From positions 186,001-250,000 of the forward strand of contig SIJG01000149.1 in assembly GCA_023374025.1 (NCBI GenBank): 64,000 nt of DNA. Reading direction: 5' to 3'. The position numbers were made by a program, and so were the translations under genes. The notes beneath the pieces are model-generated. The model was not told the DNA's origin, ran no database searches, and saw nothing but the letters and a program-made list of their open reading frames with translations. This document shows, piece after piece, positions 20,619 through 42,534 of the stretch. How positions within the stretch are numbered: position 1 is the first letter of the stretch; each line of letters opens with the position of its first letter. Source of the stretch: Heterodera schachtii (taxonomy: Eukaryota; Nematoda; Chromadorea; Rhabditida; Heteroderidae).

Positions 20619-20642
20619 ATAAGAAATTAAATTAAATTAAAA

Positions 20643-20993
20643 ATGTATAAATTTAGCTCCGAAGTGAAGGAGAATACAGCGTTCCTAAAGAAGCTTGCCT
20701 CCACCAGATCAGAACAAAAGAAGAACGAATTAATCGAAAACGTTACAGCTGACCAAATTTTGGCAATTGTTGAAATTTGTGCAAATATATTGAGTTTTAG
20801 TTTTAAACTCACGAGCAAACAAAAAAGAAGATTGGCACAATACGCCGATTTCTATAGAGAAATTGCCAAATCCCGTACAGAGAAAACGGCAAGAAAAAGG
20901 ATACAACAGGGGAGTGGTATAGCCCTGGGAGCTGTCTTGATCCCGGTACTGAGTGTTTTAGCCCAACATTTATTAGAAAAAATAACATCATGA
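20643..20993 (+). CDS. Polinton-type small protein, hydrophobic C-terminus
   Basis: The 116-residue basic protein has a helical body and a Lys/Arg-rich middle (KQKRRLAQYADFYREIAKSR). Its C-terminal stretch GIALGAVLIPVLSVLAQHLL is hydrophobic and could act as a membrane segment or amphipathic helix. The RRL..YADF..., GSG-ALG and P-V-L pattern recurs in short ORFs of invertebrate Polintons; its biochemical role is not known to me. The stop overlaps the next start as ATGA, so both may be translated from one mRNA. Confidence 0.7.
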   Translation: MYKFSSEVKENTAFLKKLASTRSEQKKNELIENVTADQILAIVEICANILSFSFKLTSKQKRRLAQYADFYREIAKSRTEKTARKRIQQGSGIALGAVLIPVLSVLAQHLLEKITS

Positions 20994-22734: not shown

Positions 22735-23806
22735 CTTTTACATTGTACTACCCTCGAACACACCGGGGCAGGGGAACACTACATCGAAATTCACAGTACG
22801 ACTCCCCGAGACTTTGGAATTGGGCACAAATTGGTCAGTAGCTCTCTCATCAATTATTTACCCCTAATCATTCACCGCTCTCGGTATAAATGGTCAAGAG
22901 TTTATTAAAGTATGGGAAAATGACAGCAGTGTCCCCATTCAAGTTTATTTACCGGACATGAATTTTAAAATCGCCGGGGGATTGGGAAATAAAATTAACG
23001 AAGCATTCACACATCATTACAAAATCAAAAAACAACGTGGAAAGAGAGAAGCCAAGGCTGAAGAAACCAAAGACTCAAAAATTGATGTCGCAAAGAGGGC
23101 CGCAGAACGCGCTGGGAGAGATGTAGAAAGACATTTCAATCAGATCAATAATATCTCGAGCTCCATCCAAACCCAAATAAACACACTACGGGAAACAAAT
23201 ACTCAAATTTTAGAAGAGCCCGATATAAAAGTGTGGTTTGACAAAATGGTTAAGATGGGAACCCAAATTCAAACAACTCGAAATGAACTTAAATCTTTTC
23301 AAGAAGAAGTAGATAAAGCCAAAAACACAACATTAGAGCATGTGGCAAATAATGACATGAAACAAGCAAAGAAATCAGCTGATGTCGCAAAGGGAATCGC
23401 CAGACAGGCAAAAACCAAATATACATCAACTCTCGAGGAATATAATGATAAATCGGAAAAGGGTTATATCGGAATAGTGAATAGGCTTAATGATGCGCTG
23501 GGTGAGCATATTAAGCGTAAGGATATTGAAAATAGACAAGTATCTGAAGCTGAGAAAGGACCACAAAAAAGAGAGAGATTAGCCAATGAGGATGTTCAAT
23601 TTCACTATGATAGCATTGATCAGAAATTTATTGTCTATCTTTCCTCTGCCGTCTCCCACATAGATTTGTCAAAACACCTCGCCTATGTGCTTGGTTTTAA
23701 GAACACAAGGCTATTTCACGCGGAAGAGGTTAATTTTTCAGAGAATTTCCAAAGTTCTCGGTTATGCCAGAAAAATGGCTATCTCTTTTTTGTAACAAAT
23801 TTCTAG
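22727..23806 (+). pseudogene. Polinton penton-like minor capsid protein, one stop, truncated
   Basis: The ATG overlaps the integrase stop by 8 bp. The N-terminal pattern FYIVLPSNT, followed by RLPETLELG and WSVALSSIIYP, is characteristic of the Polinton penton (capsid vertex) family. A TAA at 22865-22867 interrupts the frame in that conserved region. The same frame then continues through a long Lys/Glu/Gln coiled-coil-like insertion (about 23030-23600) and the conserved LSSAV..LSKHLAYVLGF segment. From about 23729 the coding sequence runs into the 126-bp satellite and ends at 23806, so the true C-terminus is lost. Confidence 0.82.
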
Positions 23807-26800: not shown

Positions 26801-29011
26801 GCTCCTTTTTGGAACAAATTTCGAGCGAACAAATGCTCGCGAGCAAGAGCCGCGGAGCGGTAAGCAACTGCCAGTTAATTTTTCAGAGAATTTCCAAAGT
26901 TCTCGGTTATGCCAGAAAAATGGCTATCTCTTTTTTGGAACAAATTTCTAGCGAACAAATGCTCGCGAGCAAGAGCCGCGGAGCGGTAAGCAACTGCCAG
27001 TTAATTTTTCAGAGAATTTCCAAAGTTCTCGGTTATGCCAGAAAAATGGCTAGCTCTTTTTTGGAACAAATTTCGAGCGAACAAATGCTCGCGAGCAAGA
27101 GCCGCGGAGCGGTAAGCAACTGCCAGTTAATTTTTCAGAGAATTTCCAAAGTTCTCGGTTATGCCAGAAAAATGGCTATCTCTTTTTTGGAACAAATTTC
27201 TAGCGAACAAATGCTCGCGAGCAAGAGCCGCGGAGCGGTAAGCAACTGCCAGTTAATTTTTCAGAGAATTTCCAAAGTTCTCGGTTATGCCAGAAAAATG
27301 GCTATCTCTTTTTTGGAACAAATTTCTAGCGAACAAATGCTCGCGACAAGAGCCGCGGAGCGGTAAGCAACTGCCAGTTAATTTTTCAGAGAATTTCCAA
27401 AGTTCTCGGTTATGCCAGAAAAATGGCTAGCTCCTTTTTGGAACAAATTTCGAGCGAACAAATGCTCGCGAGCAAGAGCCGCGGAGCGGTAAGCAACTGC
27501 CAGTTAATTTTTCAGAGAATTTCCAAAGTTCTCGGTTATGCCAGAAAAATGGCTATCTCTTTTTTGGAACAAATTTCTAGCGAACAAATGCTCGCGAGCA
27601 AGAGCCGCGGAGCGGTAAGCAACTGCCAGTTAATTTTTCAGAGAATTTCCAAAGTTCTCGGTTATGCCAGAAAAATGGCTATCTCTTTTTTGGAACAAAT
27701 TTCTAGCGAACAAATGCTCGCGACAAGAGCCGCGGAGCGGTAAGCAACTGCCAGTTAATTTTTCAGAGAATTTCCAAAGTTCTCGGTTATGCCAGAAAAA
27801 TGGCTAGCTCCTTTTTGGAACAAATTTCGAGCGAACAAATGCTCGCGAGCAAGAGCCGCGGAGCGGTAAGCAACTGCCAGTTAATTTTTCAGAGAATTTC
27901 CAAAGTTCTCGGTTATGCCAGAAAAATGGCTAGCTCTTTTTTGGAACAAATTTCGAGCGAACAAATGCTCGCGAGCAAGAGCCGCGGAGCGGTAAGCAAC
28001 TGCCAGTTAATTTTTCAGAGAATTTCCAAAGTTCTCGGTTATGCCAGAAAAATGGCTATCTCTTTTTTGGAACAAATTTCTAGCGAACAAATGCTCGCGA
28101 CAAGAGCCGCGGAGCGGTAAGCAACTGCCAGTTAATTTTTCAGAGAATTTCCAAAGTTCTCGGTTATGCCAGAAAAATGGCTAGCTCTTTTTTGGAACAA
28201 ATTTCGAGCGAACAAATGCTCGCGAGCAAGAGCCGCGGAGCGGTAAGCAACTGCCAGTTAATTTTTCAGAGAATTTCCAAAGTTCTCGGTTATGCCAGAA
28301 AAATGGCTATCTCTTTTTTGGAACAAATTTCTAGCGAACAAATGCTCGCGAGCAAGAGCCGCGGAGCGGTAAGCAACTGCCAGTTAATTTTTCAGAGAAT
28401 TTCCAAAGTTCTCGGTTATGCCAGAAAAATGGCTAGCTCTTTTTTGGAACAAATTTCTAGCGAACAAATGCTCGCGAGCAAGAGCCGCGGAGCGGTAAGC
28501 AACTGCCAGTTAATTTTTCAGAGAATTTCCAAAGTTCTCGGTTATGCCAGAAAAATGGCTATCTCTTTTTTGGAACAAATTTCTAGCGAACAAATGCTCG
28601 CGAGCAAGAGCCGCGGAGCGGTAAGCAACTGCCAGTTAATTTTTCAGAGAATTTCCAAAGTTCTCGGTTATGCCAGAAAAATGGCTAGCTCTTTTTTGGA
28701 ACAAATTTCGAGCGAACAAATGCTCGCGAGCAAGAGCCGCGGAGCGGTAAGCAACTGCCAGTTAATTTTTCAGAGAATTTCCAAAGTTCTCGGTTATGCC
28801 AGAAAAATGGCTAGCTCCTTTTTTGGAACAAATTTCGAGCGAACAAATGCTCGCGAGCAAGAGCCGCGGAGCGGTAAGCAACTGCCAGTTAATTTTTCAG
28901 AGAATTTCCAAAGTTCTCGGTTATGCCAGAAAAATGGCTATCTCTTTTTTGGAACAAATTTCTAGCGAACAAATGCTCGCGAGCAAGAGCCGCGGAGCGG
29001 TAAGCAACTGC
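23729..29011 (+). repeat. Satellite array, ~42 copies of a 126-bp unit
   Basis: Head-to-tail units of 126 bp (some 125) run from within the penton gene to the left LTR of the retroelement. Each unit divides into a 99-bp part (33 open codons) and a 27-bp part that begins GTAAGC and ends TTTTTCAG, a nematode-like donor and acceptor. Variants are shuffled in trimers, giving 377-378 bp higher-order periods. Some units carry a TGA, others a 1-bp deletion. The left edge starts mid-unit at TTAATTTTTCAG and the right edge is cut by the LTR. The long open frames in the array follow from the 126-bp period and are not evidence of a gene. Confidence 0.95.
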
Positions 29012-30158
29012 TGTCCGGGGCACGTCTTGGTAATTGAGAATGGCCTGCGCGATGAGACGTGCGCCAAGACGGTGCACAATGGCTTTCCAATTTTCGCCAA
29101 TGTCCAACCTCGTCAATCCGCCGATGTCCAAAATGCGCGAGTTGTCCTTGTCCAATCCGTCAATTCGCCGATGTCCAAATTGCGCGAATTGTCCTTGTCC
29201 AATCCGTCAATTCGCCAATGTCCAAAATGCGCGAATTGTCCTCGTCCAAATTCGTCAACGTCAATTTGTCCAATGGGTTCCGTTTGTCCGGCGCAAAGTG
29301 TCGTCCGTGTCAAAGGGTTGCAGTGTTCAAATTTGGGTCAATTACCTTTGGTGAGGTGAAAATGTGTTAATGAGAAATGTGAGTGAAAGTCAAATGCCAA
29401 TAAATTGGTAAGTGATTTTCCGCCTCTCAAAAAATGGTGATTTAGTTTTTGGCGGAAAATCACATAAAACCTCCAAGTCCCTTGCAGTCCGTTGTTCAAA
29501 TAAATTCAAAGAAATTTATTATGATCAATTTGATGGAAATGCGAAGAGTGAGAAAAAATGTTTTAAAGCATTTTAATTGTATTTGTCAGAAGTGAGCAAA
29601 AGAGAAAAAAGGACAAGCTTAAGAAAGGCGGATGAGACCGCCGTTAATTTACAAAAGATGGTGAACGGCGATAAGAAGTGAAAGAAAAAATGGGGTTCAA
29701 AGTGAATGAATGAAATAAATAAAATGTGGAAAATGATTATGGCAAGGATGGGAAGCGCGAAATGTAAAGCAAAGTGAAAGAAAGGAATAGATAAATATAA
29801 AAGTGATTATTGCAAAATAATTGAATGAGCAAAAATCAAATACGGCATTTTGAAAATTGTCAAATTTCCTTCATTTACAATTTTCGTCGTTGCTTCATTT
29901 CTCTCCATTTGCGCCATTCGTCCTTCGTTCTTGTTCGCACTCTTTCAATTGCGCCGCTCCGTCCAATTGCCTCCGCCTGTGTGTCCTCGGGGACCACTTC
30001 GACCCCAATTCGCCGTTCGCTGTCCCTCGCCAAAGTGAGATTGGCCGTGCCTGAGTTTGTCTTTGCTCCTTTCAGTGTCGTCGTCTCTCCATGGTCCGCG
30101 CTTTGTCCCTGGGTTGGGAAATGTGTTATTTGGTCCGAAAATCGGGCTGTTTCGGACA
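29012..30158 (-). repeat. 3' LTR of the BEL element (left copy)
   Basis: On the plus strand it begins TGTCCGGGG and ends TTTCGGACA, with matched TGTCCG/CGGACA termini. It is 1147 bp, the same as the right LTR, and nearly identical to it over about the first 930 bases. The part near 29940-30140 (U3 in element orientation) is strongly diverged. It contains the last codons of the env ORF (to 29875). A purine-rich CGGGGAG directly abuts it at 30159-30165 on the minus strand, the likely polypurine tract. Confidence 0.92.
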
Positions 30159-31098
30159 CTCCCCGAAAAACAAAAGCTTGGTTTTTAACGGGTCTACCAA
30201 GTTGACTTAATTCAGTCTCGGTGAGCTGATTTTGCTTCTTTTGTAAAATACCCTCTATTTGTTTTTGAATTAATTTACCTTGGAGTTTTAAGTAAATTTT
30301 GTACATCCATAAGAGGACTGTACACATCACGACTAACCTTATTACCGTTTTTTCCCAATCTATGGTTCCGAGAATATTTAAATTTTTAAACCAATTATTT
30401 TCCACATAACGGTTTCCGGGGCTTTGGATTACGCTTTCCATTAATCTGCTAGTCCTGAGAGACCGGATTGTTTGTAAAATTTCCAATTGAGCGTTACTCA
30501 CATTGCCCAAAATTAACTGTTGGAAAGTTTGAATTGGAAATTCAGGATTTTTGATTTTTCCGAAATTATCTGAGATTTTCAAATGCTCCACGTTTTTAAT
30601 TTTTTCCCATTTTCCTGTTAGTTGGTTTACTTCTCGTATTTCCCCTCCCAACTCAATTGCAACGAATTGATTCTGTTCGCACGAGACGAACTCTGACGTT
30701 TCTTCGATTACCTTATGTAAAGGATCTAAGAATCCTAAAGTCCATGTTAATTCCCCAATTGATACATTGACTGGAATGGTTTTGTGACACCTTCCATCAG
30801 GTGATGAAATGAATGTGGAATTTGCATAAGAGCAAGGCCACCATTCAAGTACATTTGGGGAAACCCATTTTGCCTTTACTAATTCAGTACCCGTTTTTTC
30901 TCGCATTAATTGCGTTGGGTTTAAATGACTCAGATCTTGTTTTGGGTTAGCATTCTGCAAAATACCACAAATCAAGTCTACCATTTTTTGAAACAACTCC
31001 TTTGTTTCTTTATTTTGGTAAATAGCCCTCGCTGTCAATTGTGCAGCGGCTGTTGAACTTTTTCGTTCTGATCTAATGGTTTTTCCTTTACCCACCAT
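29875..31098 (-). CDS. env-like: Envelope-like glycoprotein, C-terminal part, running into the 3' LTR
   Basis: The 407-codon frame continues the envelope begun in the preceding ORF through a -1 frame change in the 64-bp overlap. It has a Cys-containing ectodomain (for example WWPCSYANSTF near residue 88 and GRCHKTIPV near 103), helices suggestive of a fusion subunit, and one transmembrane segment at about 252-271 (VIRLVVMCTVLLWMYKIYL). A charged tail follows. Its last ~95 codons lie in LTR U3; the final 23 residues are identical to those in the right LTR, but the tail before them is very different. Which viral glycoprotein family it came from I cannot say. Confidence 0.7.
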   Translation of the reverse strand: MVGKGKTIRSERKSSTAAAQLTARAIYQNKETKELFQKMVDLICGILQNANPKQDLSHLNPTQLMREKTGTELVKAKWVSPNVLEWWPCSYANSTFISSPDGRCHKTIPVNVSIGELTWTLGFLDPLHKVIEETSEFVSCEQNQFVAIELGGEIREVNQLTGKWEKIKNVEHLKISDNFGKIKNPEFPIQTFQQLILGNVSNAQLEILQTIRSLRTSRLMESVIQSPGNRYVENNWFKNLNILGTIDWEKTVIRLVVMCTVLLWMYKIYLKLQGKLIQKQIEGILQKKQNQLTETELSQLGRPVKNQAFVFRGVSETARFSDQITHFPTQGQSADHGETTTLKGAKTNSGTANLTLARDSERRIGVEVVPEDTQAEAIGRSGAIERVRTRTKDEWRKWREMKQRRKL

Positions 31099-32831
31099 TG
31101 TTCTCTTTTGATCCTATGGTTAGTCTTACCCGTAATTATTCTAAATTGCCACGAGGGGACTGCAAATCCTTGGTCACTTAATTTAAGTGTGTGACCGCAT
31201 GATTCTACACTCTTAGCATTTTCTTGAAATGATAAAGCGAACTGTGAATTTTTTGATATCCACATTCTCTTAGTGAATTTCCCGTTTTCTGTTGCCACTT
31301 TGTTGTAAAGGCAAGCGCTTTGATGCTCCGTGGAATCGAGGTTCCAAATTAGGATCGCATTATCCCCCAATCGGCATGATCCTTTAGAAAATTTACATTT
31401 GCTCACTTCCTCTGTAGGTGAGCCTAAATTTTCAGATCCCGGTTTTCCTAGTAAGGTTATTACTGCATGATAGCAATTATTCACTTCGGACTTGTCTTTT
31501 CCGAATTTCCACCAAGAATAGGCTATTTGCAATTCTTGGTTTGTATGAAATTGCTCATTTGAATGACCACTGAGAGGTCCAAATTCACACTTTTCATAAT
31601 TGATCATTTCTTGACAATCTTCGATTGTCATTGGGAGGGTGGAAACACTGACCGGATCACTGAACTTATCGTTTAGTAAATTGGTCCAAAATTTTTGGCT
31701 TTGTTTGACCTTTAGACATCGATGTGCCTTAAACGTGAATGGTTCTGAATTGGGTTGATAAATGTCAACTTCCAATTCCCGTTGAGGTTCGTCAAATAAA
31801 TTGGCAATTAGGTTGCATTGGGTTGTGTCTCTATCTATTCTCACATAATTTTTCTGTGCTCTATGATGGCAAAGCATCGGGTTTGGAATTGTTGTCCTTA
31901 TCATAGACAAAATGAAAATTATGAAAAATTGTTGAGACAATTTTTGATTCCAAAATATGCGTTTGTGGTGCCCGGACCCAGTTTTCTCAATTCTCTTACC
32001 TTGCTCGTGTTGAGACACGGGCTCATTTGGAATAACCTTCAATTTGACCATATCGTCACTGAGTTCTTCAATTTCTCGACTTTGGTTAACCTTTTCTAAC
32101 AATTCACTTTTCTCATCAGATGAGACTGATGTTTTCTCTACCCATTCTTTTTCCAGGTCAATTCCTAGTTCTTCAAGGACATTGACTTCCTTGACTAATG
32201 GTAAGCCGAATTCATTGGCTGTCTTTTCAAACTCCTCACATATCCTTTTAAACCCATCTTCTCGTACGCTACTCGCTACATTCCTTTTATTGTATGGATT
32301 TTCAATGAAAATTGGCTGTCTATCTTCCTGAAATTCCTTAAGGTGTCTTCTCTCTTCCCATTCTCCCCTTTCGGAAATTACATGAGTACGGAATGGGAAA
32401 CAATTAAAAAACTCAAAGAAACCTATGAGAAGGCCTTTCATATCTTTGTTTTTTAATCCATTTACCTTAATTCTTCCCTCAAAATAATGCATGGCCATGA
32501 GAGACCAACCGAAGGTGTTTAAATACCCGGAACCATTCAAAATGTTTCTGGTTTTTGCCCAATTTTTGATGCCAACAAGAAATAACGGGATTCGAGGATC
32601 CCCTTCAACGTACTTTTTTAATTTGTTGCTATTTTCAACTGCATCTCTGTTTCCAACTCCAACTTGGATCTTGAGAGACCCCTTTTGAGTTGAAACCTTA
32701 GCATCCAAAATTGGAATACGGGCGGGTATTAGATTGCATGTCCAAAAATCCGCTCCATTCTTTTCCCAATTCTTTCGAAAGGTTTTGAGAAACCAAACAG
32801 CATTTTCTTTATTTTCAAATCGTTTTCCCAT
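31035..32831 (-). CDS. Nucleotidyltransferase C-terminal part fused to envelope N-terminal part
   Basis: The 598-codon frame overlaps the preceding one by 103 bp and continues it by -1. Residues 30-130 match the rest of a TUTase/GLD-2-type nucleotidyltransferase (ARIPILDAKV, then KNWAKTRNILNGSGYLNTFG). Residues 130-215 match its PAP-associated domain (GLLIGFFEFF and PIFIENPYNKRNVA). A hydrophobic stretch at about 301-318 (QQFFIIFILSMI) looks like an internal signal peptide and starts a Cys-rich ectodomain (320-560), the beginning of the envelope. The initiator Met is probably not used. The third catalytic Asp of the nucleotidyltransferase seems replaced: Lys stands in the LKIQV strand. Confidence 0.8.
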   Translation of the reverse strand: MGKRFENKENAVWFLKTFRKNWEKNGADFWTCNLIPARIPILDAKVSTQKGSLKIQVGVGNRDAVENSNKLKKYVEGDPRIPLFLVGIKNWAKTRNILNGSGYLNTFGWSLMAMHYFEGRIKVNGLKNKDMKGLLIGFFEFFNCFPFRTHVISERGEWEERRHLKEFQEDRQPIFIENPYNKRNVASSVREDGFKRICEEFEKTANEFGLPLVKEVNVLEELGIDLEKEWVEKTSVSSDEKSELLEKVNQSREIEELSDDMVKLKVIPNEPVSQHEQGKRIEKTGSGHHKRIFWNQKLSQQFFIIFILSMIRTTIPNPMLCHHRAQKNYVRIDRDTTQCNLIANLFDEPQRELEVDIYQPNSEPFTFKAHRCLKVKQSQKFWTNLLNDKFSDPVSVSTLPMTIEDCQEMINYEKCEFGPLSGHSNEQFHTNQELQIAYSWWKFGKDKSEVNNCYHAVITLLGKPGSENLGSPTEEVSKCKFSKGSCRLGDNAILIWNLDSTEHQSACLYNKVATENGKFTKRMWISKNSQFALSFQENAKSVESCGHTLKLSDQGFAVPSWQFRIITGKTNHRIKREQWWVKEKPLDQNEKVQQPLHN

Positions 32832-33085
32832 TCCCTCGGAAGGATAACTACGTCTAGGTCTGAGAACCTATCTGCCATCTGATACAATGAACTCCCGGTT
32901 ATGTGTACAGTTAATATTTCTCCCCGATGGCACTTTTCAATGGTTTGTTCAATCCTTTTAAATTCATTAATTTTCATCCACTTAATATTTTCTGTTTCCT
33001 TTATTGTTTCCCAATGGCATGAGAGCCATTGTGCCAAAATGTCACTCTTCAAACTCCATATTTGCTCAGGAATTTGCTGGTTAAA
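32187..33085 (-). other. TENT/TUTase-like terminal nucleotidyltransferase domain (split over two frames)
   Basis: The N-terminal half lies in the integrase-containing frame (residues ~1086-1170) and holds the Pol-beta-type signature ITGSSLYQMADRFSDLDVVI, with Gly1149-Ser1150 and Asp1161/Asp1163. The second half lies in the next frame. The order of central domain and PAP-associated domain fits non-canonical poly(A)/poly(U) polymerases, which add untemplated nucleotides to RNA 3' ends. Loss of the third Asp would weaken catalysis. Sequence fit to this family is strong by eye; function in the element is inference. Confidence 0.82.
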
Positions 33086-36000
33086 TCCCCCATTACCAAA
33101 AGTTTTCAAATCCCCAGATTCATGAGATTGGCCTTGAGAGACCATAATCAATTCCCTTTTTTCACTTATCTCTTCCTTGTTTGGTCCATTTTTACCTTGA
33201 AGTTCGGTGCGTACGGTCATAAGGCATTGTCCGAGTAAGTTCTCCCCGTTGAAACCACGCCTCAGTCCTTCTCGGATTCCACTTTCATCGCGTATGTCTG
33301 TACCTATACCCCAACTCAAAGAGGACGAGGCCTCAAAAATTGCTTCATGTCCGGTATCCATCAACATTCTTTTTAGCATACGGTTTTGACCAAATTTCGC
33401 ACGCAGAGCGGTTAACATCACCTCGATTCTCATCCGGTTCCAATAGCTTTGATTGTATGGAATCGGATCGGTTTCTTGCAGCGCCCATTGGTATGCTTCG
33501 CGATCGGTGGCACTCTTCATGGTGATTGGTGGCAGTTCTCCCCGCAGAATTTGTTGAGCCAGTCTTGGCATTCGGAATTCCATCGCCTTCCTCCATGTAT
33601 AATACTGCTCCGAACATCGAAACAATTGATTGTCCACGCTGAACTCGATGGTAAAGAAGTTGCTGAATGCGTAAACATGGCGAAAGAAAAAATAGCCACC
33701 TCTCCCCTCAACTTCAATCCATTTGGGGTATGGGGGTTTATCCCATTCGTCATCTGCAACTCTTTGAACAGCCGTGAGAGGCTGATAATTACTGATTTGT
33801 GGAACAGCCATGAGAGGCTGATTTTGAAATGGAGGTCTTTTTTCAGACCTATTTAACAAAGGCACTCGCGGCATTGGTTCCTCAAACCAAACATCCCTTT
33901 GCCCTTGTTGAGTCGGCCAAGGCTGCTGCTGTTGTTGTTGTTGTGAAGTGCCTTGATGAAACTTCTTACGATTCGTTTCCCATTCCCGCTGCCATTTGTC
34001 TGGTCGGACTCGTTTTGGTGCTTTTTCCTTCCTTTTGATGATTTGCAACCCCAACTGCATCATACTTAAGAGCATGTCTTGGATCGATTCGATTTCGTCG
34101 ATGATGTGCCAGTGGTGAAGAAGTTGTCGATGATTTGGGTGAAGTTCGGCTTGTGGAATTGATGAAATCCAAAACAACAATCTGTCGTTGTACAGTTGTT
34201 GGGCTGTGATAAGCGTTTGCAGAAATCCCAAATCGTCCAACGTGGCTCCTCTCCTCCAGACAATAATTGAGTGCACACTCTCAATCTGCAATTCTTCCGC
34301 AAAAAGGTTTGCATCCCACTCCGCCGGATAGTGACAGAACTGCCTCGCTTCGGCATTGATCAGGCAATCGCGAATGGCACCCGCGTCCTCTTCCCCTTGC
34401 CCCAATATGAGAATTGGGGCCCTTATAACTTTTAATTCTGGTTCTTCGAAGTTTGGGCCAACGTTGTCCTCATGTTGTTCCGTCGGTGTCGTTGTTGAAC
34501 TTGGCTGTTCTGTCGGCTGTTCTTCATCAATTTCGTACCATTCCTCCTCCATGCTGGCCAAGCTAACCGTGTCTTCCATTGTCAGCGCTGAAATTTCATT
34601 AATGGGATTAGGGTCAGACTCGAGGGTCTCTATTTCCAGTGGGTATAATAAAATTGTCGCCCTTTCCATTATTTTTCCGTCTGGCATTTTTAATTTGGCA
34701 GTTCGGTTATTGATTATATTTTCTATTTTACCTAATTTCCATTTATTCCGGGGACACGGTTTTTGGTCATTGATTAGTACCACTTGTCCTATTTTTGGAA
34801 ACCTTTGTTCATCCACATTTTTGGCCTTTTCCCTTTCCCTCAATGCCAATAAATAGTCATCCCTAAAGACTTCCCAGAATTTGGTACTCTTATACATTGT
34901 TTTCTTGTGAACTTCGAGGAGTTCATCCCTTTTTGTTTGGTTAATTTGAACATCTAAATCATCTGTATCCTCGGTTTCATTAGTATCACTCTGATACTCA
35001 AAGGGTTCCCCTTCCGATGCATTGAGAATATGTATTGGGCACAAGGGCTCCATAATTTCATCGTTCTCAATGTATGTAATTGGCCTTTCGTTGACTATCC
35101 TTTCCACTTGGATAAGATAAGTCAATAATTCTTCATAATCCAATAATTTTTTACCTAACCCTCGGTATAAATGGTGTTTGACTAGACCGATTAGTCGCTC
35201 AAAAAATCCCGAGCGCCAAGGAGCTAATGGAGAGGCAAATTGCCATGTGATTCCCTTATTTGCCGTAAGCTCTTGCACCTCTCTTTCGTTCATGATCATT
35301 GACCATCTCTCCTTTTCCTCTAATTCCTTTTGTCTGGTCTGAATTTGACCCCAAACCTTATTTTTCCTCCAATGTGCCTCAGTAATTTTAGCCAATATCT
35401 TATGAGAAAGAACAAATTGGCTAGCATTGTCAGAGATTATCATTTTTGGCACTCTTCTACGCCTCATGAATCTCTCTAAAGCCAATAAGAATTTTTGTGC
35501 CGTACAATCTGTCACTATTTCTAAGTGTATGGCACGTGTGACTGTACACACAAATATTGCTCCCCAAACCTTTTGTGTGTCTTCATTGACCCTTATTGTT
35601 ATTGGACCAAAATAGTCTAAGCCAATGGTCTCGAATGCACTTGACCCTTTTACTCGGTGAATTGGTAAGGGGGGAGGATTTGGATAACTGAAAGCCTTGG
35701 CTTCTAATTTGGCACAAATCCCACATTTAGTGTATGGATTTTTCTTAATGACCATGGTAATCATTTTTCTGCATTTTGGAATCCAGAATTTTTTCCTCAG
35801 ATAATTGAGAATCTGAGTTTTTCTTCCATGTTCTGTCTCCAAATGTGCTTCAGAAATAAGCAAATCTAGAATCGGTATCTGATGAGACAGATAAATGGGA
35901 TTCACAGTATTATATTCAAATCCTCCTTCTTCAATTCTTCCTTTACACCTTAATAAACCATTATCATCTGTAAACATTTGTAAATTCCTCCTGGTATTTT

Positions 36001-36340
36001 CATCTGGAGGAAAATTCAATTGCATTTCCTTTATAATTACTTCCTCAGCTTCTTCCAACTCATTAGCCGTGAGAGGCTTAATCTTTTTAATCGATTCACT
36101 ACTCGCCTTGAGAAGTTTACGTTCCTGAATTGGCTCAGTTTGTTGTACAAACTGGAGAGGTCCCTTATAAATTCGCCGAATATACGCCACTGTATTTCTA
36201 ATTCTCTTCCACTTTGAGAAGTGGTTTACGTAAACTGTGAGAAAGGAACCCAATTTCCTTTGGTTTCCTTCCCTTGCCGGATTTGCCAATTCACAAACAT
36301 GTGACCTCTTGGTTTTGATCTGCCCATACATTTGGATCAA
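32729..36340 (-). CDS. pol: Pol: integrase, linker domains, NADAR domain, start of nucleotidyltransferase
   Basis: Of 1203 codons, residues 130-210 hold the zinc-binding N-terminal domain with HLETEHG, then CGIC. The catalytic core is at 235-390, with Asp in LDYFGP, Asp in IISDNASQF and Glu in FFERLIG. A BEL-type C-terminal domain (480-570, FPKIGQVVLIND) follows. Residues 637-765 form an unrecognised alternating strand/helix domain (APILILGQGEEDAG, HSIIVWRRGA). A Gln run is at 800-806, a NADAR domain at 880-1047, and from 1086 the nucleotidyltransferase begins. It continues the RNase H frame by +1 in a 50-bp overlap and passes by -1 into the next frame near 32825. Three non-retroviral domains after integrase are unusual. 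Confidence 0.9.
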   Translation of the reverse strand: MIQMYGQIKTKRSHVCELANPAREGNQRKLGSFLTVYVNHFSKWKRIRNTVAYIRRIYKGPLQFVQQTEPIQERKLLKASSESIKKIKPLTANELEEAEEVIIKEMQLNFPPDENTRRNLQMFTDDNGLLRCKGRIEEGGFEYNTVNPIYLSHQIPILDLLISEAHLETEHGRKTQILNYLRKKFWIPKCRKMITMVIKKNPYTKCGICAKLEAKAFSYPNPPPLPIHRVKGSSAFETIGLDYFGPITIRVNEDTQKVWGAIFVCTVTRAIHLEIVTDCTAQKFLLALERFMRRRRVPKMIISDNASQFVLSHKILAKITEAHWRKNKVWGQIQTRQKELEEKERWSMIMNEREVQELTANKGITWQFASPLAPWRSGFFERLIGLVKHHLYRGLGKKLLDYEELLTYLIQVERIVNERPITYIENDEIMEPLCPIHILNASEGEPFEYQSDTNETEDTDDLDVQINQTKRDELLEVHKKTMYKSTKFWEVFRDDYLLALREREKAKNVDEQRFPKIGQVVLINDQKPCPRNKWKLGKIENIINNRTAKLKMPDGKIMERATILLYPLEIETLESDPNPINEISALTMEDTVSLASMEEEWYEIDEEQPTEQPSSTTTPTEQHEDNVGPNFEEPELKVIRAPILILGQGEEDAGAIRDCLINAEARQFCHYPAEWDANLFAEELQIESVHSIIVWRRGATLDDLGFLQTLITAQQLYNDRLLFWISSIPQAELHPNHRQLLHHWHIIDEIESIQDMLLSMMQLGLQIIKRKEKAPKRVRPDKWQREWETNRKKFHQGTSQQQQQQQPWPTQQGQRDVWFEEPMPRVPLLNRSEKRPPFQNQPLMAVPQISNYQPLTAVQRVADDEWDKPPYPKWIEVEGRGGYFFFRHVYAFSNFFTIEFSVDNQLFRCSEQYYTWRKAMEFRMPRLAQQILRGELPPITMKSATDREAYQWALQETDPIPYNQSYWNRMRIEVMLTALRAKFGQNRMLKRMLMDTGHEAIFEASSSLSWGIGTDIRDESGIREGLRRGFNGENLLGQCLMTVRTELQGKNGPNKEEISEKRELIMVSQGQSHESGDLKTFGNGGFNQQIPEQIWSLKSDILAQWLSCHWETIKETENIKWMKINEFKRIEQTIEKCHRGEILTVHITGSSLYQMADRFSDLDVVILPREWENDLKIKKMLFGFSKPFERIGKRMERIFGHAI
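33200..33703 (-). other. NADAR (YbiA/DUF1768-like) domain inside the retroelement polyprotein
   Basis: Residues ~880-1047 show the family pattern in order: FSNFFTIEF, a strand ending in CSEQYYTWRKA, a long helix region, then AKFGQNRMLKRMLMDTG, IFEAS, SWGIG and NLLGQCLMTVR. NADAR domains act on ADP-ribose-type substrates; bacterial members remove ADP-ribose from guanine and some act in riboflavin metabolism. The acidic residue often found just before WG(I)G is Ser here, so activity may be altered. The domain lies between a Gln-rich linker and the nucleotidyltransferase. It is in frame with integrase and has no stops. Confidence 0.85.
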
Positions 36341-36929
36341 ATTCCCTGATTGTTTGTGGCCACTGTGTATTTTTCAGACTTATAAACGGTGGTCCTTTCC
36401 ACCATAATTCATTGTTTTGTAAATCTTCCGGACTAGTGCCACGAGAGGCAACGTCTGCCGGATTTGACTGTCCCTCAATATGTTTGACATTCCATTGTCT
36501 CATCTTCTCAACCCGATTTTTAATGTATCTTTCTAATTTCCTGTTGCTATTCAGAAAATCTAATACATCTGTGGAATCCGTCCACAACTGTACAGTCTCA
36601 ATTCTCAATGACTTTTCTATTTGACCCTTGACATAATTTAACCATTTCGAAGTCAAAAGCATTGCGTGTAATTCCAAAATCGGAATGGTCCGATACTTTA
36701 ATGGAATTATTGATGGAACAACGAGACTCTTACCAAATATGAGATTGGTATTTATTCGATTTGAATTAATTACTCTCAAATATATTGCCGTTCCCATGGC
36801 CTTATGTGATGCGTCTGAGAACGCATGCAATTCACACTGACAATTCTTAATCATTTCTTTTGGAATGATATTCCTTGGTACTGTTATTGACTGATTTTCC
36901 CAGTCTTTCATCAGTGTCATCCATTCCAT
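36291..36929 (-). CDS. pol: Pol: RNase H segment in a separate frame
   Basis: The 212-codon frame begins in the connection region after the reverse transcriptase and overlaps that frame by 83 bp (+1 relation). RNase H catalytic acids are visible: Asp39 in HAFSDAS, Glu86 in ILELHAM, Asp118 in LWTDSTD and Asp159 in NPADVASRG. It ends at TGA within a 50-bp overlap with the integrase frame, again +1. Conserved sequence continues across both joins, so these are recent indels, sequencing errors or recoding sites. Confidence 0.88.
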   Translation of the reverse strand: MEWMTLMKDWENQSITVPRNIIPKEMIKNCQCELHAFSDASHKAMGTAIYLRVINSNRINTNLIFGKSLVVPSIIPLKYRTIPILELHAMLLTSKWLNYVKGQIEKSLRIETVQLWTDSTDVLDFLNSNRKLERYIKNRVEKMRQWNVKHIEGQSNPADVASRGTSPEDLQNNELWWKGPPFISLKNTQWPQTIREFDPNVWADQNQEVTCL

Positions 36930-39900
36930 TTAGCTCTTCGTCAGACAACGAGGTGTCCCATTTGAGCTTTTTATTCGTTTCTACTCTTTGCCGAAATAAT
37001 TTTGCGGGCAAAATTGCTGGTGCCGCAAATCCGTTCGGATCAAAGGGTTTAGCAATTTGTGCTAAGACCTTTCTTCTCGTCAATTTCTCAGATTTAAACA
37101 CTGGGAAATGTATGACCAGAGTGTCATTGTTAATGTCCCATTTTATTCCTAACAATTTGACTCCTCCTTTTACCACTTGGTCTTCACTTGGTAAATTCTC
37201 TATTTCCTTGGTACAGTTGGACACGAACTCTCTCACATTCATACCAGCTTCAGAAAAAATCTCTTTGAGAAGAGAATAATATGACTGAATTTCTTCAGCC
37301 TTTTCTAAACCAAGTATTATGTTGTCCACATAAATGTCTCTCTCAATTTCTCTCACTTTATTATCTGTGTATTTAGATAAATGAAGTTTGATGGTCAAGG
37401 AGAGATGTGCTGGTGAACATATGACCCCAAACGTGACTCTAGTAAATCGATACTCCACGAGGGGAGAATCTTCCACGTATGGGTCTCTAACCCACAAGAA
37501 TCGCATCGCATTCCTATCCTTAGGATGTACCAAAATCTGGTGAAATGCCTTGGCTATGTCACAAGTCAACAGAATCGGTTTAATTCGACTTCGAATTAAA
37601 ATGCCTGCTAAATCATTATAATCATTATCTCCCTTTTCTAACACTTGGTTGAGGGTGAGACCTCCTCTGCATCTAGCAGACGCATTATACACAATTCGAA
37701 CCTTGGTATGTTCACTCGTTTCCTTTACCACTGGATGATGTGGTAAATAATGGACTTTACTTCCAACCAAGTACCTTTCTTCAATAGGTAATGGCTCACA
37801 CTCTTCAATGAAACCAGTTTCGACTTGTTCCATTATGATTTCATGGATTTGTCGAAGCAAATCCGGTGTTTTTCTCAGTCTGCCCAAATTTGACAGTAAC
37901 TGTCTGAATGCCATATCATAATTTGTAGGCAATTGAGCAGCCAATTCTTCATTCCATAATAACTCTGTTTGATACCTATCACCATTGAATGATATTTTAT
38001 CAATCATTCTTTGTCTCACATTTTGTTTGTCTGAATTGAGATCAGACATACCAACATGTTCCAGACCATTCCAATCCATAATCATCTTATCAAAATCATT
38101 CGGACTCAGTTGGTCACTATTCAGTTCCCATTCTACTGAACCTTGGTTACTGGAGTCTGAGACTTGACCAACAATCCATTGAATGTCATTACCACACCTT
38201 TGGTTTACGGTATGGTGAATGACTGATGATGAAATGTCGGATTGAGATCCGTTTAATGACTTAAAGAATTGAACCTTTCCTTGTCCACTCAAAAATTGAC
38301 CAATATTTGAGTCATTGATATACAATCCCGACTGTAATTCCTCTAAGACACTAATGTTCAAACGATTATAATAATCGTTTCCAATAATTAAATCAGGCTC
38401 ACCATACACCTCTGGTACCTTTAATTTTGTTTTCCGTAATTGCTCTTGAGAGAGCTGATTGAGTTCAATCACCGGAATTTTCTTCAAAATTTTATCAAGG
38501 GCTCGACATTTCATCAAAATGTCAAAGTTGCCCTTTTTGAGACCAAATTCATAAATTGGAGATTCAAATTTACCCAATTCGACATTCGATAAACCTGAGA
38601 GTTCAAACTTTTGATTACCAATTGGCTTCAAACCCAAAAATTGAGCCAATTTGGTCGAAATGTATGTCTTCTGACTTCCATCGTCCATGAAAACCAAAAT
38701 CCTTTTCCTTTGCCTCGGATTTTCAGGATTATAAATGGTAACATATTTACATTTCAGTAAAGACAATTTCGTTGTTTTACTTGTAACACACGAAGTGACC
38801 GATGTTATTTCCTTTTCGACCTCTTCAGACTCTGAGAAGTCTTGAGTCGTATTTATCTTCGACCGAACTGGTGAGTTTTCTGAACTACTATTCCTCCTAT
38901 CTTTGGGTTTGTCCTTGGATCTACACAATGAGATGTGATGGCCCGCCCGATTACAAATGTTGCACTTATATCCCTTTAAAGTGCATTGACTTGCCCAATG
39001 ACCGGTCCTTAAACAAATGAAACATAATTCCATCTTCAATACTTTATTGCGCCGTGAGAGGGCATCCATATATTTATGGCATTTACTCGCACTGTGTTCA
39101 CCTTGGCACAATTGGCATTTTCTCTGCTCATCCTTCTTCCATTTCTCACGCTCTGGTGAGCTTGACCAATCCCTTTTGGGATAAGGAGAATTCCTCCTAT
39201 CCCTCATTGGTGAATGGCTGACCGATGAGTCACTATTATCGTGTCTCTGATCACGAAATTTCCTTGGTTCAAATTTCCGCCCACGAGGGGGCGACTGATC
39301 TGAGTTCCGTTGAGGAAATTTATTCCTCCCTTGGTATTTATCATTTTTGGAAAATGCCGTGAAAGACATTGTCTGTTCATGTCTGTCCCTTTTAGGCTCA
39401 ATCACATTTTTTCTCAATTCCTGCCTATGTTTTATTTGGTCCAATGCACGTGAGAATGCATTTCGGAACTTTGACGTGTCCCAATCATCATTATCTTCGG
39501 CATCCTTAATAATACAGTATTTGTCTAACACCTCTGGAGACATTTTACCCTCCAGGTTACTGTAGTACATGCCATCTTCGACATTTTGATTCATTGAAAT
39601 CAATTGTCGAAATATTTTTTCAGACTTCAAGTACAAGGACTCGTCGTCCTCAAATGACTCACTAATTGGAAGTGACATAAGTTCCCGGTTTAACGTTCGG
39701 ATTAGCCGTTTGGTTTCCCCGTAGGTCTTTAAAAGCAAATCAATGGCATCATCATACCCGCTTTCACTAATGGGGATACCCTGAATGATTGCACTGGCTT
39801 TGCCTTCAATGCATGAGTCTAAATAACTGAACTTATCAATTTTTGGGACCTGAGAGTCCTCATGAATTATTGTACGAAAGTAATCCCAAAATGGTATCCA

Positions 39901-40377
39901 CTGAGATGGACTACCATCAAATCTCTTAAGCTCAGTTTTTGGCAAATTTTTCCTCATTGGTACACTCCTTGAGAGGGGTACTGTACCTGAGTTTGTATCA
40001 CCATCAGTATTATGAGTTATGTCTAACCTCTCTTCTAATGCCTCAATTTTGTCCTTCAAATTTGGAATGAGAACGTCAGCTGCCCTTTGTTTCTCATTAA
40101 TTTGTAACTCCTGCATTAATTCCTGCATTTCCGTTTCCTTACGGATTGCATTGTCTCGACTCAGTTTGCCAATATACTCATTAGCCAAACCCAAATTATC
40201 TTCAATCTTTTGTACCACCCTTTCTATGTCATTCAGAAGGTTTCTGAATTTGTACAGCCTCCTTTGGCATTGATTTGGGAGGGCATTTATTCCCAGGTCA
40301 GGTGGGATTTCGGTACCCAATAATGCCTCCAATTTGCTGGCACACCCCCTAATTACTGCCTGGATTGGAGCAGTCAT
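36847..40377 (-). CDS. gag-pol: Gag-Pol: gag, zinc knuckles, protease, reverse transcriptase
   Basis: Of 1176 codons, residues 20-120 are coiled-coil-like. Residues 140-330 are a Pao-type gag region (KRFDGSPSQWIPFWDYF, later YLDSCIEGKAS). An Arg/Ser-rich stretch (330-415) precedes three CCHC-like knuckles (CQLCQGEHSASKC at 421, then near 452 and 472). The aspartic protease has DDGS at 565-568. The reverse transcriptase (about 780-1080) has Asp940 in LLTCDIAKAF and the YVDN box at 1016-1019. Single-frame Gag-Pol is normal for BEL/Pao elements. The ATG at 40377 is the first good start after the hairpin-rich leader. Confidence 0.92.
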   Translation of the reverse strand: MTAPIQAVIRGCASKLEALLGTEIPPDLGINALPNQCQRRLYKFRNLLNDIERVVQKIEDNLGLANEYIGKLSRDNAIRKETEMQELMQELQINEKQRAADVLIPNLKDKIEALEERLDITHNTDGDTNSGTVPLSRSVPMRKNLPKTELKRFDGSPSQWIPFWDYFRTIIHEDSQVPKIDKFSYLDSCIEGKASAIIQGIPISESGYDDAIDLLLKTYGETKRLIRTLNRELMSLPISESFEDDESLYLKSEKIFRQLISMNQNVEDGMYYSNLEGKMSPEVLDKYCIIKDAEDNDDWDTSKFRNAFSRALDQIKHRQELRKNVIEPKRDRHEQTMSFTAFSKNDKYQGRNKFPQRNSDQSPPRGRKFEPRKFRDQRHDNSDSSVSHSPMRDRRNSPYPKRDWSSSPEREKWKKDEQRKCQLCQGEHSASKCHKYMDALSRRNKVLKMELCFICLRTGHWASQCTLKGYKCNICNRAGHHISLCRSKDKPKDRRNSSSENSPVRSKINTTQDFSESEEVEKEITSVTSCVTSKTTKLSLLKCKYVTIYNPENPRQRKRILVFMDDGSQKTYISTKLAQFLGLKPIGNQKFELSGLSNVELGKFESPIYEFGLKKGNFDILMKCRALDKILKKIPVIELNQLSQEQLRKTKLKVPEVYGEPDLIIGNDYYNRLNISVLEELQSGLYINDSNIGQFLSGQGKVQFFKSLNGSQSDISSSVIHHTVNQRCGNDIQWIVGQVSDSSNQGSVEWELNSDQLSPNDFDKMIMDWNGLEHVGMSDLNSDKQNVRQRMIDKISFNGDRYQTELLWNEELAAQLPTNYDMAFRQLLSNLGRLRKTPDLLRQIHEIIMEQVETGFIEECEPLPIEERYLVGSKVHYLPHHPVVKETSEHTKVRIVYNASARCRGGLTLNQVLEKGDNDYNDLAGILIRSRIKPILLTCDIAKAFHQILVHPKDRNAMRFLWVRDPYVEDSPLVEYRFTRVTFGVICSPAHLSLTIKLHLSKYTDNKVREIERDIYVDNIILGLEKAEEIQSYYSLLKEIFSEAGMNVREFVSNCTKEIENLPSEDQVVKGGVKLLGIKWDINNDTLVIHFPVFKSEKLTRRKVLAQIAKPFDPNGFAAPAILPAKLFRQRVETNKKLKWDTSLSDEELNGMDDTDERLGKSVNNSTKEYHSKRND

Positions 40378-41231
40378 TGTTCAAATCAATGTCCAAACTC
40401 GAAAGGTTGGAGATAAGACTCCAATTTAATAATCAATAACCGAACTGTGACCGAAAAATTTGAAAAATTTAAAAAATTTGGAACTGAGACTCCAAATTAA
40501 TCAATAACCGAACTGCGTACTGATTTGAGACTCAGTAATTTAAATAAAAGAGACGAAAGGGGGAGGGGGGAGGGTGAACGATTCACGATTTGTAAGACCT
40601 TTTTACCACGCACTGTCAGTTCTAAGACTCTGATTTTATCAAGTGCTGATGGTTTGGACAATTTTGGGTTCAAAACAAAAATAAAACAAACAAAAAAAAA
40701 AAAAAAAAAATGTTTAGACCCTCGGAAATGAGATTCCGAAATTTTGGGGGAAAAAATGGGGCTGAACAAAAAGGCAACAAAAAAAAAATGAATAAAATAA
40801 AACACGGAAATGAGATTCCGATTTTTTTCTTTTTGACAGATGGGATTGGACAAACAAATGTGACTCGGAAATAAAATTCCGAAAATATGGACAATTGGAT
40901 TGGATAAAAAAAAATAATTCGAAAATGAGATTTCGAAAAGTTTTGAATTAATGGGATTGGACAAACAAAAAAAAAAAAACAAAAGAAATGTGAATTTGGA
41001 AATGAAATTCAGATATTTTTCGGACAAATTTAATTTGGCAATTTAAATCTTTCACTGTTCGAAGATGAGACTTCGAAATATTCAGTTCAAACCGAATTTA
41101 ATTGCCTTTTTTCGGAGGAGGTGTGATCAGAATTAAAAAACTGATTAATTCTGGATGAGACCAGATTAATCAGACCTCCCCTTTTGGGAAAAAAAAAATT
41201 GAACCCGCCTGTGCACAATCAGGTCGCCAGT
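40378..41231 (-). other. 5' leader of the retroelement with a cluster of ten hairpins
   Basis: Between primer-binding site and gag start the leader holds ten hairpins: 40407-40424, 40476-40497, 40518-40537, 40722-40739, 40805-40820, 40865-40882, 40918-40937, 40991-41011, 41058-41077 and 41141-41173. Stems differ in sequence but most loops read ATGAGA, or a close variant, on the plus strand. The last, next to the primer site, has a 13-bp stem with one bulge, and an outer GGAGGT/ACCTCC pairing could extend it. A packaging or dimerisation leader is the obvious candidate role, by analogy with retroviral leaders. Confidence 0.8.
41214..41229 (-). promoter_or_regulatory. Primer-binding site of the retroelement
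   Basis: Two bases inside the 5' LTR the minus strand reads TGGCGACC, complementary to a tRNA 3' end ...GGTCGCCA, as in some tRNA-Arg species. Only about eight bases of complementarity can be argued from memory. Confidence 0.6.
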
Positions 41232-42378
41232 TGTCCGGGGCACGTCTTGGTAATTGGGAATGGCCTGCGCGATGAGACGTGCGCCAAGACGGTGCACAAG
41301 GGCTCTCCAATTTTCGCCAATGTCCAACCTCGTCAATCCGCCGATGTCCAAAATGCGCGAGTTGTCCTTGTCCAATCCGTCAATTCGCCGATGTCCAAAA
41401 TGCGCGAATTGTCCTTGTCCAATCCGTCAATTCGCCAATGTCCAAAATGCGCGAATTGTCCTCGTCCAAATTCGTCAACGTCAATTTGTCCAATGGGTTC
41501 CGTTTGTCCGGCGCAAAGGGTCGTCCGTGTCAAAGGGTTGCAGTGTTCAAATTTGGGTCAATTACCTTTGGTGAGGTGAAAATGTGTTAATGAGAAATGT
41601 GAGTGAAAGTCAAATGCCAATAAATTGGTAAGTGATTTTCCGCCTCTCAAAAAATGGTGATTTAGTTTTCGGCGGAAAATCACAAAAAACCTCCAAGTCC
41701 CTTGCAGTCCGTTGTTCAAATAAATTCAAAGAAATTTATTATGATCAATTTGATGGAAATGCGAAGAGTGAGAAAAAATGTTTTAAAGCATTTTAATTGT
41801 ATTTGTCAGAAGTGAGCAAAAGAGAAAAAAGGACAAGCTTAAGAAAGGCGGATGAGACCGCCGTTAATTTACAAAAGATGGTGAACGGCGATAAGAAGTG
41901 AAAGAAAAAATGGGGTTCAAAGTGAACGAATGAAATAAATAAAATGTGGAAAATGATTATGGCAAGAATAAGAAGTGCGAAATGTAAGGCAAAGTGAAAG
42001 AAAGGAATAAATAAGTATAGAAATGATTATTGCAAAACAATTGAATGAGCAAAAATCAAAGACGACATTTTGAAAATTGCCAAATTTCCTTCATTTACAA
42101 TTTTCGTCGTTGCTTCATTTCTCTCCATTTGCGCCATTCGTCCTTCGTTCTTGTTCGCACTCGCTCAACCCGTCCAACCGTGTCGCCCTCGTTGACCGCT
42201 TTGTGCCGAATTTGCCGCTCGTCCCCATCCGCCAAGTTGAGATTGGCTTCGTTGTCCAACTTCGCCCCAATTCGCCGCTCGTTTCCATCCGCCAAGTTGA
42301 GATTGGCTTTGTCGTCCAACTTCTCCTGGTTTGGGAAATGATGAATTATTTGGTCCGAAAATGGGTGTGTTTCGGACA
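41232..42378 (-). repeat. 5' LTR of the BEL element (right copy)
   Basis: It is 1147 bp with the same TGTCCG/CGGACA termini as the left LTR. About 930 bp next to the internal region are almost identical to the left LTR. The outer ~200 bp (U3) differ strongly and contain a 60-bp direct duplication (42231-42290 and 42291-42350). On the minus strand U3 still carries an open frame (42394-42095) ending in the same 23 residues as the env tail. Promoter elements of the element should lie here, but no clear TATA box is seen. Confidence 0.92.
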
Positions 42379-42534
42379 ATACATGAAAAATCATTTTTAT
42401 TAATTTTTTTTTAAAAAAGTGAAATTATTTTTGCGGAATGAGCCCGAGTGCCGAGTTATGACGTGCCAAAGTTCTAAGTTTTTTTATAATAAAAGTAAAG
42501 TAACAATTTTATTTAAGTTATTTTAAACTGCCCG

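Follow-up and report, generated by a model that had tools for sequence, protein, structure and literature searches.

Why should a retroelement carry dozens of hairpins that have one loop in common on stems of mostly unrelated sequence? The question is raised by a 64,000-nucleotide stretch of the Heterodera schachtii genome (contig SIJG01000149.1, positions 186,001 to 250,000; the whole stretch is called the window below, and coordinates are its own). It holds a BEL/Pao long terminal repeat (LTR) retroelement of about 13 kb, which reads in sense on the minus strand of the window, where its pol open reading frames (ORFs) lie. We found that these hairpins far exceed what codon-preserving shuffles produce, that their loop is closed by a pair across it, that sibling copies preserve their stems, and that related families in the same genome carry hairpins with other loops. 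On balance, we lean towards reading them as multi-copy sites on the sense RNA for the element's own Gag, a packaging signal of the leader that would have been extended over the rest of the RNA, each lineage having its own loop.

A Shared-Loop Hairpin throughout the Element

The words NTGAGA and NCGAGG occur 70 times on the plus strand of the element (29047-42307), 37 times flanked by a perfect stem of 4 bp or more (14 stems of 4 bp, 13 of 5, five of 6, three of 7, and two of 8), against 0 of 50 same-strand words elsewhere in the window with a stem of even 3 bp. In the flanks of the window, counted on both strands, stems of at least 4 bp were found at 1 of 46 and 0 of 49 words. The initial annotation, made from the letters alone, had described such perfect 4-8 bp hairpins at about 45 sites and their absence from GAGA words in the neighbouring Polinton, and both descriptions agree with our counts, since allowing G-U pairs gives 45 element sites, and adding 7- and 8-nucleotide loops gives 52. 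Its statement that most GAGA words sit in hairpins proved too strong on the strict test (TCTC, 30/85; TCTCA, 29/62; CCTCG, 8/9). Two of the long-stem examples it offered are not hexaloops, 35796-35817 having an 8-nucleotide and 38028-38048 a 7-nucleotide loop.

Read in the sense RNA, the loops are UCUCAN and CCUCGN, with U-CUC-A in 37 and C-CUC-G in eight of the 45 sites of the G-U-allowed set. The background rate in the element, for a stem of at least 4 bp around any hexaloop, is 0.98%. In a screen of all words at loop lengths 3-9, the top word in the element was TCTCA at loop position 1 (29/62, p about 1e-41); this screen counts copies, so repeat-driven words are also listed (window left flank, L040, and L043), and the later screens count distinct stems. 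A general excess of hairpins was considered and rejected: 29 of the 52 hexaloop hairpins of at least 5 bp have other loops, a number within the 24-43 found for each other loop length (3-10). A simple repeat is ruled out by the stems, which are mostly unrelated, as the initial annotation had noted, with some leader stems alike.

Codon-preserving shuffles (1000 per ORF, five ORFs) gave means that sum to 0.47 hairpins and a maximum of two in any ORF, against 31 observed ORF counts. These represent 30 distinct sites, as 32781-32794 sits in an overlap of two ORFs. The loops occupy all three codon frames, which also rules out an amino-acid motif. Given the shuffle excess and the use of every frame, neither protein sequence nor codon usage nor composition accounts for the stems. 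The 47 inner sites are spaced more evenly than under random placement (coefficient of variation 0.75 vs 0.97, P 0.028). The hairpins are as follows, all on the minus strand.

41847..41862, minus, GGCGG-UCUCAU-CCGCC, 5' LTR
41150..41165, minus, UCUGG-UCUCAU-CCAGA, leader
41058..41077, minus, UUCGAAG-UCUCAU-CUUCGAA, leader
40918..40937, minus, UUCGAAA-UCUCAU-UUUCGAA, leader
40805..40820, minus, CGGAA-UCUCAU-UUCCG, leader
40722..40739, minus, UCGGAA-UCUCAU-UUCCGA, leader
39897..39910, minus, 4 bp, UCUCAG
39846..39859, minus, 4 bp, UCUCAG
39278..39293, minus, 5 bp, CCUCGU
38924..38937, minus, 4 bp, UCUCAU
38827..38842, minus, 5 bp, UCUCAG; loop UAUCA in both siblings
38442..38455, minus, 4 bp, UCUCAA
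38238..38251, minus, 4 bp, UCUCAA; outermost pair broken in C51a
37651..37664, minus, 4 bp, UCUCAC
37453..37466, minus, 4 bp, CCUCGU
37260..37275, minus, 5 bp, UCUCAA
36944..36957, minus, 4 bp, CCUCGU
36809..36826, minus, 6 bp, UCUCAG
36209..36224, minus, 5 bp, UCUCAA
36065..36078, minus, 4 bp, UCUCAC
35876..35893, minus, 6 bp, UCUCAU; double compensatory change in siblings
35398..35411, minus, 4 bp, UCUCAU; double compensatory change in siblings
34908..34925, minus, 6 bp, CCUCGA
34616..34629, minus, 4 bp, CCUCGA
34399..34420, minus, 8 bp, UCUCAU; within the part absent from the C51b match
33805..33820, minus, 5 bp, UCUCAU
33769..33784, minus, 5 bp, UCUCAC
33321..33334, minus, 4 bp, CCUCGU; NADAR coding
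33012..33031, minus, 7 bp, UCUCAU
32855..32870, minus, 5 bp, UCUCAG
32781..32794, minus, 4 bp, UCUCAA; two-ORF overlap
32587..32602, minus, 5 bp, CCUCGA
32114..32131, minus, 6 bp, UCUCAU
32006..32019, minus, 4 bp, UCUCAA
31924..31945, minus, 8 bp, UCUCAA
31331..31346, minus, 5 bp, CCUCGA
29627..29642, minus, GGCGG-UCUCAU-CCGCC, 3' LTR
40479..40494, 39445..39460, 38590..38605, 33129..33144, 32666..32681, 32492..32507, 32420..32435, 30450..30465, minus, reaching 4 pairs only with G-U (n=8)
38028..38048, minus, 7-nucleotide-loop variant UCUCAAU
42291..42307, 42231..42247, 31565..31579, 30029..30045, minus, other 7-nucleotide-loop variants
35796..35817, 36731..36750, minus, 8-nucleotide-loop variants

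A Pair across the Loop

Among the 168 NCUCNN hexaloops, a stem of at least 4 bp is present in 39 of 87 whose loop ends 1 and 5 can pair and in 0 of 81 whose ends cannot. By loop-end pair, the counts are 29/62 for U-A, 8/9 for C-G, 1/5 for A-U, 1/4 for U-G, 0/2 for G-C, and 0/5 for G-U. Since no such stem surrounds a loop with unpairable ends, this is a pseudo-triloop, in which a Y1-R5 pair brackets the CUC triplet and base 6 stays unpaired. The unit NTGAGA/NCGAGG of the initial annotation is thereby refined to Y-CUC-R plus a free base.

This geometry has been named for iron-responsive elements and some viral hairpins, and a hexaloop with a 1-5 cross-loop pair and a free base 6 is shared with the iron-responsive element, the brome mosaic virus promoter hairpin, and the hepatitis B virus encapsidation signal, as these are described in PMC8466369. 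Identity with the iron-responsive element was rejected, since that element has a C-G cross-loop pair around AGU, where the triplet here is CUC and the closing pair mostly U-A, and since just 2 of 45 sites have its bulged C beneath an upper helix of 5 bp. A further difference is that the copies number in the tens and are mostly in coding sequence. Rfam gave no match in 28900-42500 at E<=1. A covariance model built from 43 window sites returned 29 hits at E<=0.05, 28 of them in the window element (where hits arise by construction) and its C51 copies and one elsewhere. Pair counts over rows selected for pairing are likewise partly built in and do not count as evidence here.

Element Architecture

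Assignment to BEL/Pao rests on the reverse transcriptase (RT), Pao peptidase A17, integrase/DUF5641, and LTRs, with the order gag-protease-RT-A17-integrase. RVT_1, A17, and DUF5641 were above the Pfam cut-off and rve and H2C2 below it, and the gag region has the DUF1759 and CCHC knuckles (three by pattern) of BEL/Pao gag. The LTRs form a 931-bp match with 910 of 931 positions identical.

41232..42162, minus, 5' LTR, 931-bp match to the 3' LTR; one strict hairpin, 41847-41862
40378..41231, minus, leader, 5' LTR to gag ORF; densest hairpin array, 7.0 per kb
36847..40377, minus, gag-protease-RT ORF with DUF1759, zinc knuckles (three by pattern), DUF1758, RVT_1, and the start of Peptidase_A17; 11 strict hairpins
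36291..36929, minus, ORF with the remainder of Peptidase_A17; one strict hairpin
32729..36340, minus, ORF with integrase (H2C2 and rve below the Pfam cut-off, DUF5641 above) and then a NADAR domain (about 33196-33676); 13 strict hairpins, one common to the next ORF
31035..32831, minus, ORF with a Cid1/PAP-associated nucleotidyltransferase domain; six strict hairpins, one common to the preceding ORF
29875..31098, minus, last ORF, without a Pfam match at E 0.01; 0 strict hairpins
29012..29942, minus, 3' LTR, 931-bp match to the 5' LTR; one strict hairpin, 29627-29642

Gene order, LTRs, and knuckles are thus those of BEL/Pao (Belpaoviridae), from which the element differs in its hairpins and in the NADAR and Cid1-like nucleotidyltransferase cargo after integrase (31035-33676, minus). 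Both cargo domains are also present in C47 and C13, two of the related elements described below; C26 and C90 have matches to both, C217 has a NADAR match with two stops, and C68 has a NADAR match and a below-cut-off PAP_assoc match. A precedent for NADAR in LTR elements is given by Ectocarpus Gypsy families (PMC12477816).

Outside the leader, hairpin density is about 4 per kb from gag to NADAR, 5.6 in the nucleotidyltransferase ORF, and 1.2 in the last ORF, with 7 of the 52 hairpins in the NADAR part and 10 in the nucleotidyltransferase part. The initial annotation had placed sites in the leader, every coding segment, and the LTRs, which holds for the LTRs, each with one strict hexaloop hairpin, and on the strict test fails for the last ORF, where one site appears only when G-U pairs are allowed. 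As hairpins lie in the NADAR and nucleotidyltransferase parts too, the requirement belongs to the RNA and not to one gene.

Ten of 15 gag relatives outside this genome are from Meloidogyne (the best of these with 34-39% identity over 73-96% of the query), and the top match outside the genome is a metagenome protein; a search of viral contigs found no relatives. Adjoining the element is a tandem array whose units measure 126 bp and whose triple period is 377 bp (27000-29061, searched from 27000). Further away, at 19162-23806, a TBP gene (minus) lies beside ORFs that match an A32-like ATPase and, weakly, an integrase, a content that would fit a Polinton.

Stem Retention in Sibling Copies

Two copies on contig C51 (C51a and C51b) have about 92% DNA identity to the window element over 4.6 and 6.2 kb. 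In C51b, all stem pairs are intact in 19 of 19 aligned motif hairpins, compared with 30 of 41 control hairpins with other loops (Fisher P 0.012), and 5 of 176 motif stem bases are changed against an overall divergence of 7.5% (binomial P 0.008). Double compensations number two in the motif hairpins and none in the controls, which have 15 broken pairs. At 40530, where the stem is imperfect in the window, loop ends 1 and 5 have changed jointly from U-A to C-G in the siblings and base 6 varies. The 18 hairpins observed in C51b were reached in 0 of 1000 codon-preserving shuffles. The recognition element used many times per RNA that had been proposed is thus supported by shuffles, by retention and compensation of sibling stems, and by the cross-loop pair.

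Template switching is known to leave short perfect inverted repeats, and the hairpins might be a mutational by-product of RT switching templates at quasi-palindromes or of small hairpin-unit insertion. We regard this as very improbable. The window element shows a marked excess for one loop class alone, the siblings keep stems, twice via paired changes, and C47, the nearest relative beyond the siblings (64% amino acid identity in RT), has no excess. Insertion units can be ruled out, as none of 111 codons in 19 hairpins is gapped against C47 (elsewhere 15/1599).

The C51b match ends after integrase and an LTR follows, so this copy is without the NADAR/nucleotidyltransferase part, yet it still has hairpins; for this reason, a reader encoded in gag-pol fits best. 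Another protein of the element (the Cid1-like nucleotidyltransferase, RT/integrase, or NADAR) might instead read the hairpins while tailing, repairing, or protecting its own RNA. NADAR and nucleotidyltransferase are nucleic-acid enzymes by family (for NADAR, PMC11125620), and they follow integrase in the window element, C47, and C13, with weak matches to both in C68. Nevertheless, C51b, though possibly a dependent copy, has its hairpins without that region, and C47 has both domains and no hairpin excess, and we consider such a reader unlikely. Beside the C51b copy lies an ORF for a PIF1-like helicase (L036 4063-5427, minus).

RNA or DNA

For the 45 sites, the predicted mean pair probability is 0.58 in the sense strand and 0.43 in the antisense strand, with 0.28 for other hexaloop hairpins. 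Four distinct single changes were found in sibling stems, of which two keep a sense G-U pair, two break a pair, and none gives A-C, although these numbers are small. A function in the cDNA or antisense strand, as in strand transfer or single-strand cover, would draw on the symmetry of DNA hairpins, and over six families the balance of G-U to A-C does not differ significantly from controls (19:11 vs 255:233, p = 0.26), so that this comparison does not decide the strand in favour of our preferred reading. The higher predicted formation in the sense strand and the sibling changes nonetheless make such a function improbable. Action in RNA rather than DNA is favoured by the folding predictions and the sibling changes, though not settled.

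Relatives with Other Loops

An RT search of the genome gave at least 125 matches, of which 15 including the window were covered at about 9-16 kb each; 15 further RT loci (L017 and L019-L032) were covered at only 3.8-3.9 kb, where absence is weak, and C26, which has a NADAR match, at 3.8 kb. Sense-strand excesses of hairpins with stems of at least 4 bp were found for UNUUNA loops in C103 (19/99) and GUUNGN loops in C217 (12/67). In C13, GUUNGN loops have such stems in 6 of 34 cases (four distinct stems), and in C68 CUUNGN loops have them in 11 of 63 (eight distinct stems). An excess of any of the four motifs is confined to its own family, and seven outgroup families show none for any of them. 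Codon-preserving shuffles (1000 each) never reach the observed 11 hairpins in C103, six in C217, and seven in C68.

These motifs were tested on the sequences of their discovery, with p-values uncorrected and a gapped-word screen that can try about 32,000 words per locus. On that scale, C103 (9e-21) and C217 (3e-13) survive plainly, C68 is less secure (2e-7 for one stretch, 5e-7 for the other, and 2e-11 pooled in a bulge-tolerant screen), and the excess in C13 and C26 does not survive alone. The C217/C13 GUUNGN family is the weakest case. In C26, the three GUUCGN hairpins are copies of one 33-nt repeat, and 33-nt-spaced repeats, each with a GUUNGN word and most with a hairpin, are present in C13 (L045 7829-7928, upstream of NADAR) and within the C26 stretch (L053 1745-1844). 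GAAAT loops also appear in four related loci with three hits each (p 2e-4 to 6e-4).

In an RT tree (21 RT rows, midpoint root, with a long-branch warning), the window element, C51a, C47, C217, C13, C103, and C68 fall in one clade (99/96 support) beside C35 and C73. Presence of hairpins takes two changes on this tree, for example a single gain plus loss in C47, and subclades agree in loop type. A different loop per lineage suggests selection to differ from co-resident relatives.

A host RNA-binding protein could also be the reader, for export, localisation, stability, or as defence, and cellular proteins do read hexaloop or pseudo-triloop hairpins, such as the iron regulatory proteins that bind iron-responsive elements (PMC8466369) and Roquin (PMC5603727). 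Such a reader sits poorly with loops that differ among families living in one genome and with window flanks that lack the excess, and under defence a site that only represses should tend to disappear rather than be retained by compensation. We therefore think a host reader doubtful.

Each of the 15 elements whose gag region was covered matches a zinc-knuckle pattern. C217 (L039) and C13 (L045) match it at the first and third place only, where other families match three, and a link between this difference and their GUUNGN loop is a candidate. In C68 (L044), an ORF at 3603-5999 (minus), after the nucleotidyltransferase match, has a weak Pfam match to the Monjiviricetes fusion glycoprotein, below the curated cut-off, and is possibly an envelope-like gene in this clade.

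Leader Arrays

A gag start was found in 12 of 14 elements, with the leaders of C13 and C28a outside the comparison, and arrays of loop-sharing hairpins are present in the leaders of six families. In the window leader, six of seven TCTCA words are in hairpins (G-U allowed, p 3e-10), as are 7 of 10 words in the C51b leader (LTR part included) and 3 of 3 in the C68 leader. For C73, C217, and C103, the leader loops were chosen from the same leader survey before counting. C73 has a GAAA tetraloop (L050 1594-2054) in 8 of 16 cases against 2 of 65 in the rest of the element, an array that is almost leader-restricted; four of its eight stems are identical and a fifth differs by one pair. In C103, GUUU closed by U-A or A-U forms hairpins in 5 of 19 cases in the leader and 2 of 25 in the rest, and in C217 an ACCGG loop does so in 3 of 5. 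The leaders of C35, C184, C30, C107, and C28b have two or three loops alike each, and that of C47 has no repeated loop.

Gag as the Probable Reader

A hairpin cluster between LTR and gag, as in the retroviral packaging signal Psi, is present in the window element, and Gag is named as the reader mainly because the leader is the place of retroviral packaging signals. The sites would lie on the sense (genomic) RNA, each presenting a fixed apical CUC with Y1-R5 closure on a short stem of free sequence, and their most likely reader would be the zinc-knuckle nucleocapsid of the Gag that the element itself encodes. The dense leader array would serve as a packaging signal, and the roughly 40 further copies in the gag, pol, NADAR, and nucleotidyltransferase genes may let Gag coat, condense, and select full-length RNA. 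The leader array may have come first, with point changes within codons later adding sites over the rest of the RNA. Related lineages would retain the device and switch the loop, giving a private code that may stop packaging of a relative's RNA. More tentatively, this could amount to a self-recognition code in which lineage-specific loops mark the whole RNA, captured genes included, for the lineage's own Gag, and in which switches of loop and Gag together act as packaging barriers, again with an origin in the leader.

Several observations weigh against a Gag-read code of this kind. The geometry is not uniform, as UNUUNA resembles a tetraloop closed by U-A and ends 1 and 5 of GUUNGN are unpairable. 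In the siblings, the loop UCUCA has become UAUCA at 38837, so that one of the 19 intact-stem hairpins of C51b is without the motif loop, and it has become UUUCA at 40489; with G-U stems counted, one outermost pair is broken per copy (38247 in C51a and 40733 in C51b). The leader loop of C217 differs from its body loop, the bulge-tolerant screen yields no loop with p < 1e-5 for C13 taken by itself, and C217 and C13, which are about 75% identical, have the GUUNGN loop and stem in common at 4 of 10 aligned C217 sites. Families without hairpins also have three knuckles, so that knuckles alone are not predictive.

C47 shows no loop-class excess (0/19, 0/71, 2/146, and 1/23 for the four motifs) despite long open frames, knuckles, and NADAR and nucleotidyltransferase matches, its shuffle test gave 0, 0, 1, and 0, the same as its shuffles, and no alternative loop class was found in it by gapped words, the bulge-tolerant screen, or leader arrays. 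Its identity to the window element is 0.50 and 0.46 at hairpin codons vs 0.54 and 0.58 elsewhere. We infer that the device is dispensable or replaced in C47. The expectation that homologues keep the hairpins at conserved positions is accordingly borne out by the 92% siblings and not by C47, while in the remaining families the same type of hairpin carries a different loop.

Relation to Known Packaging Systems

Multiple dispersed stem-loops with a common loop motif are the mark of dispersed packaging signals, and the window element has them. Such signals, with co-operative coat-protein contacts, have been proposed for single-stranded RNA viruses and for the pregenomic RNA of hepatitis B virus (Twarock et al. 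2018, PMC6281560), and there, as here, many stem-loops per genome have a common loop motif and variable stems. The element differs from the signals described in that paper in its near-strict loop, an excess plain by counting, its nature as an LTR retroelement, and co-resident relatives with other loops. With retroviral Psi it shares a zinc-knuckle Gag and several leader hairpins before gag, and the HIV-1 leader binds about two dozen nucleocapsid copies (PMC7395439). Unlike Psi, the same loop recurs every 233 nt on average through all but the last gene. A partial literature search found no comparable hairpin code in LTR retroelements.

Whether many weak packaging signals act beside one strong signal has been hard to settle, as the motifs are loose. 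Here, the motif is strict enough for counting by eye and withstands codon-preserving controls, and the genome supplies natural contrasts in siblings that retain it, relatives whose loop differs, and a single relative that lacks it. The co-evolution of protein and RNA in packaging specificity thus becomes directly testable, and the differing loops suggest a route by which co-resident retroelements may avoid packaging one another.

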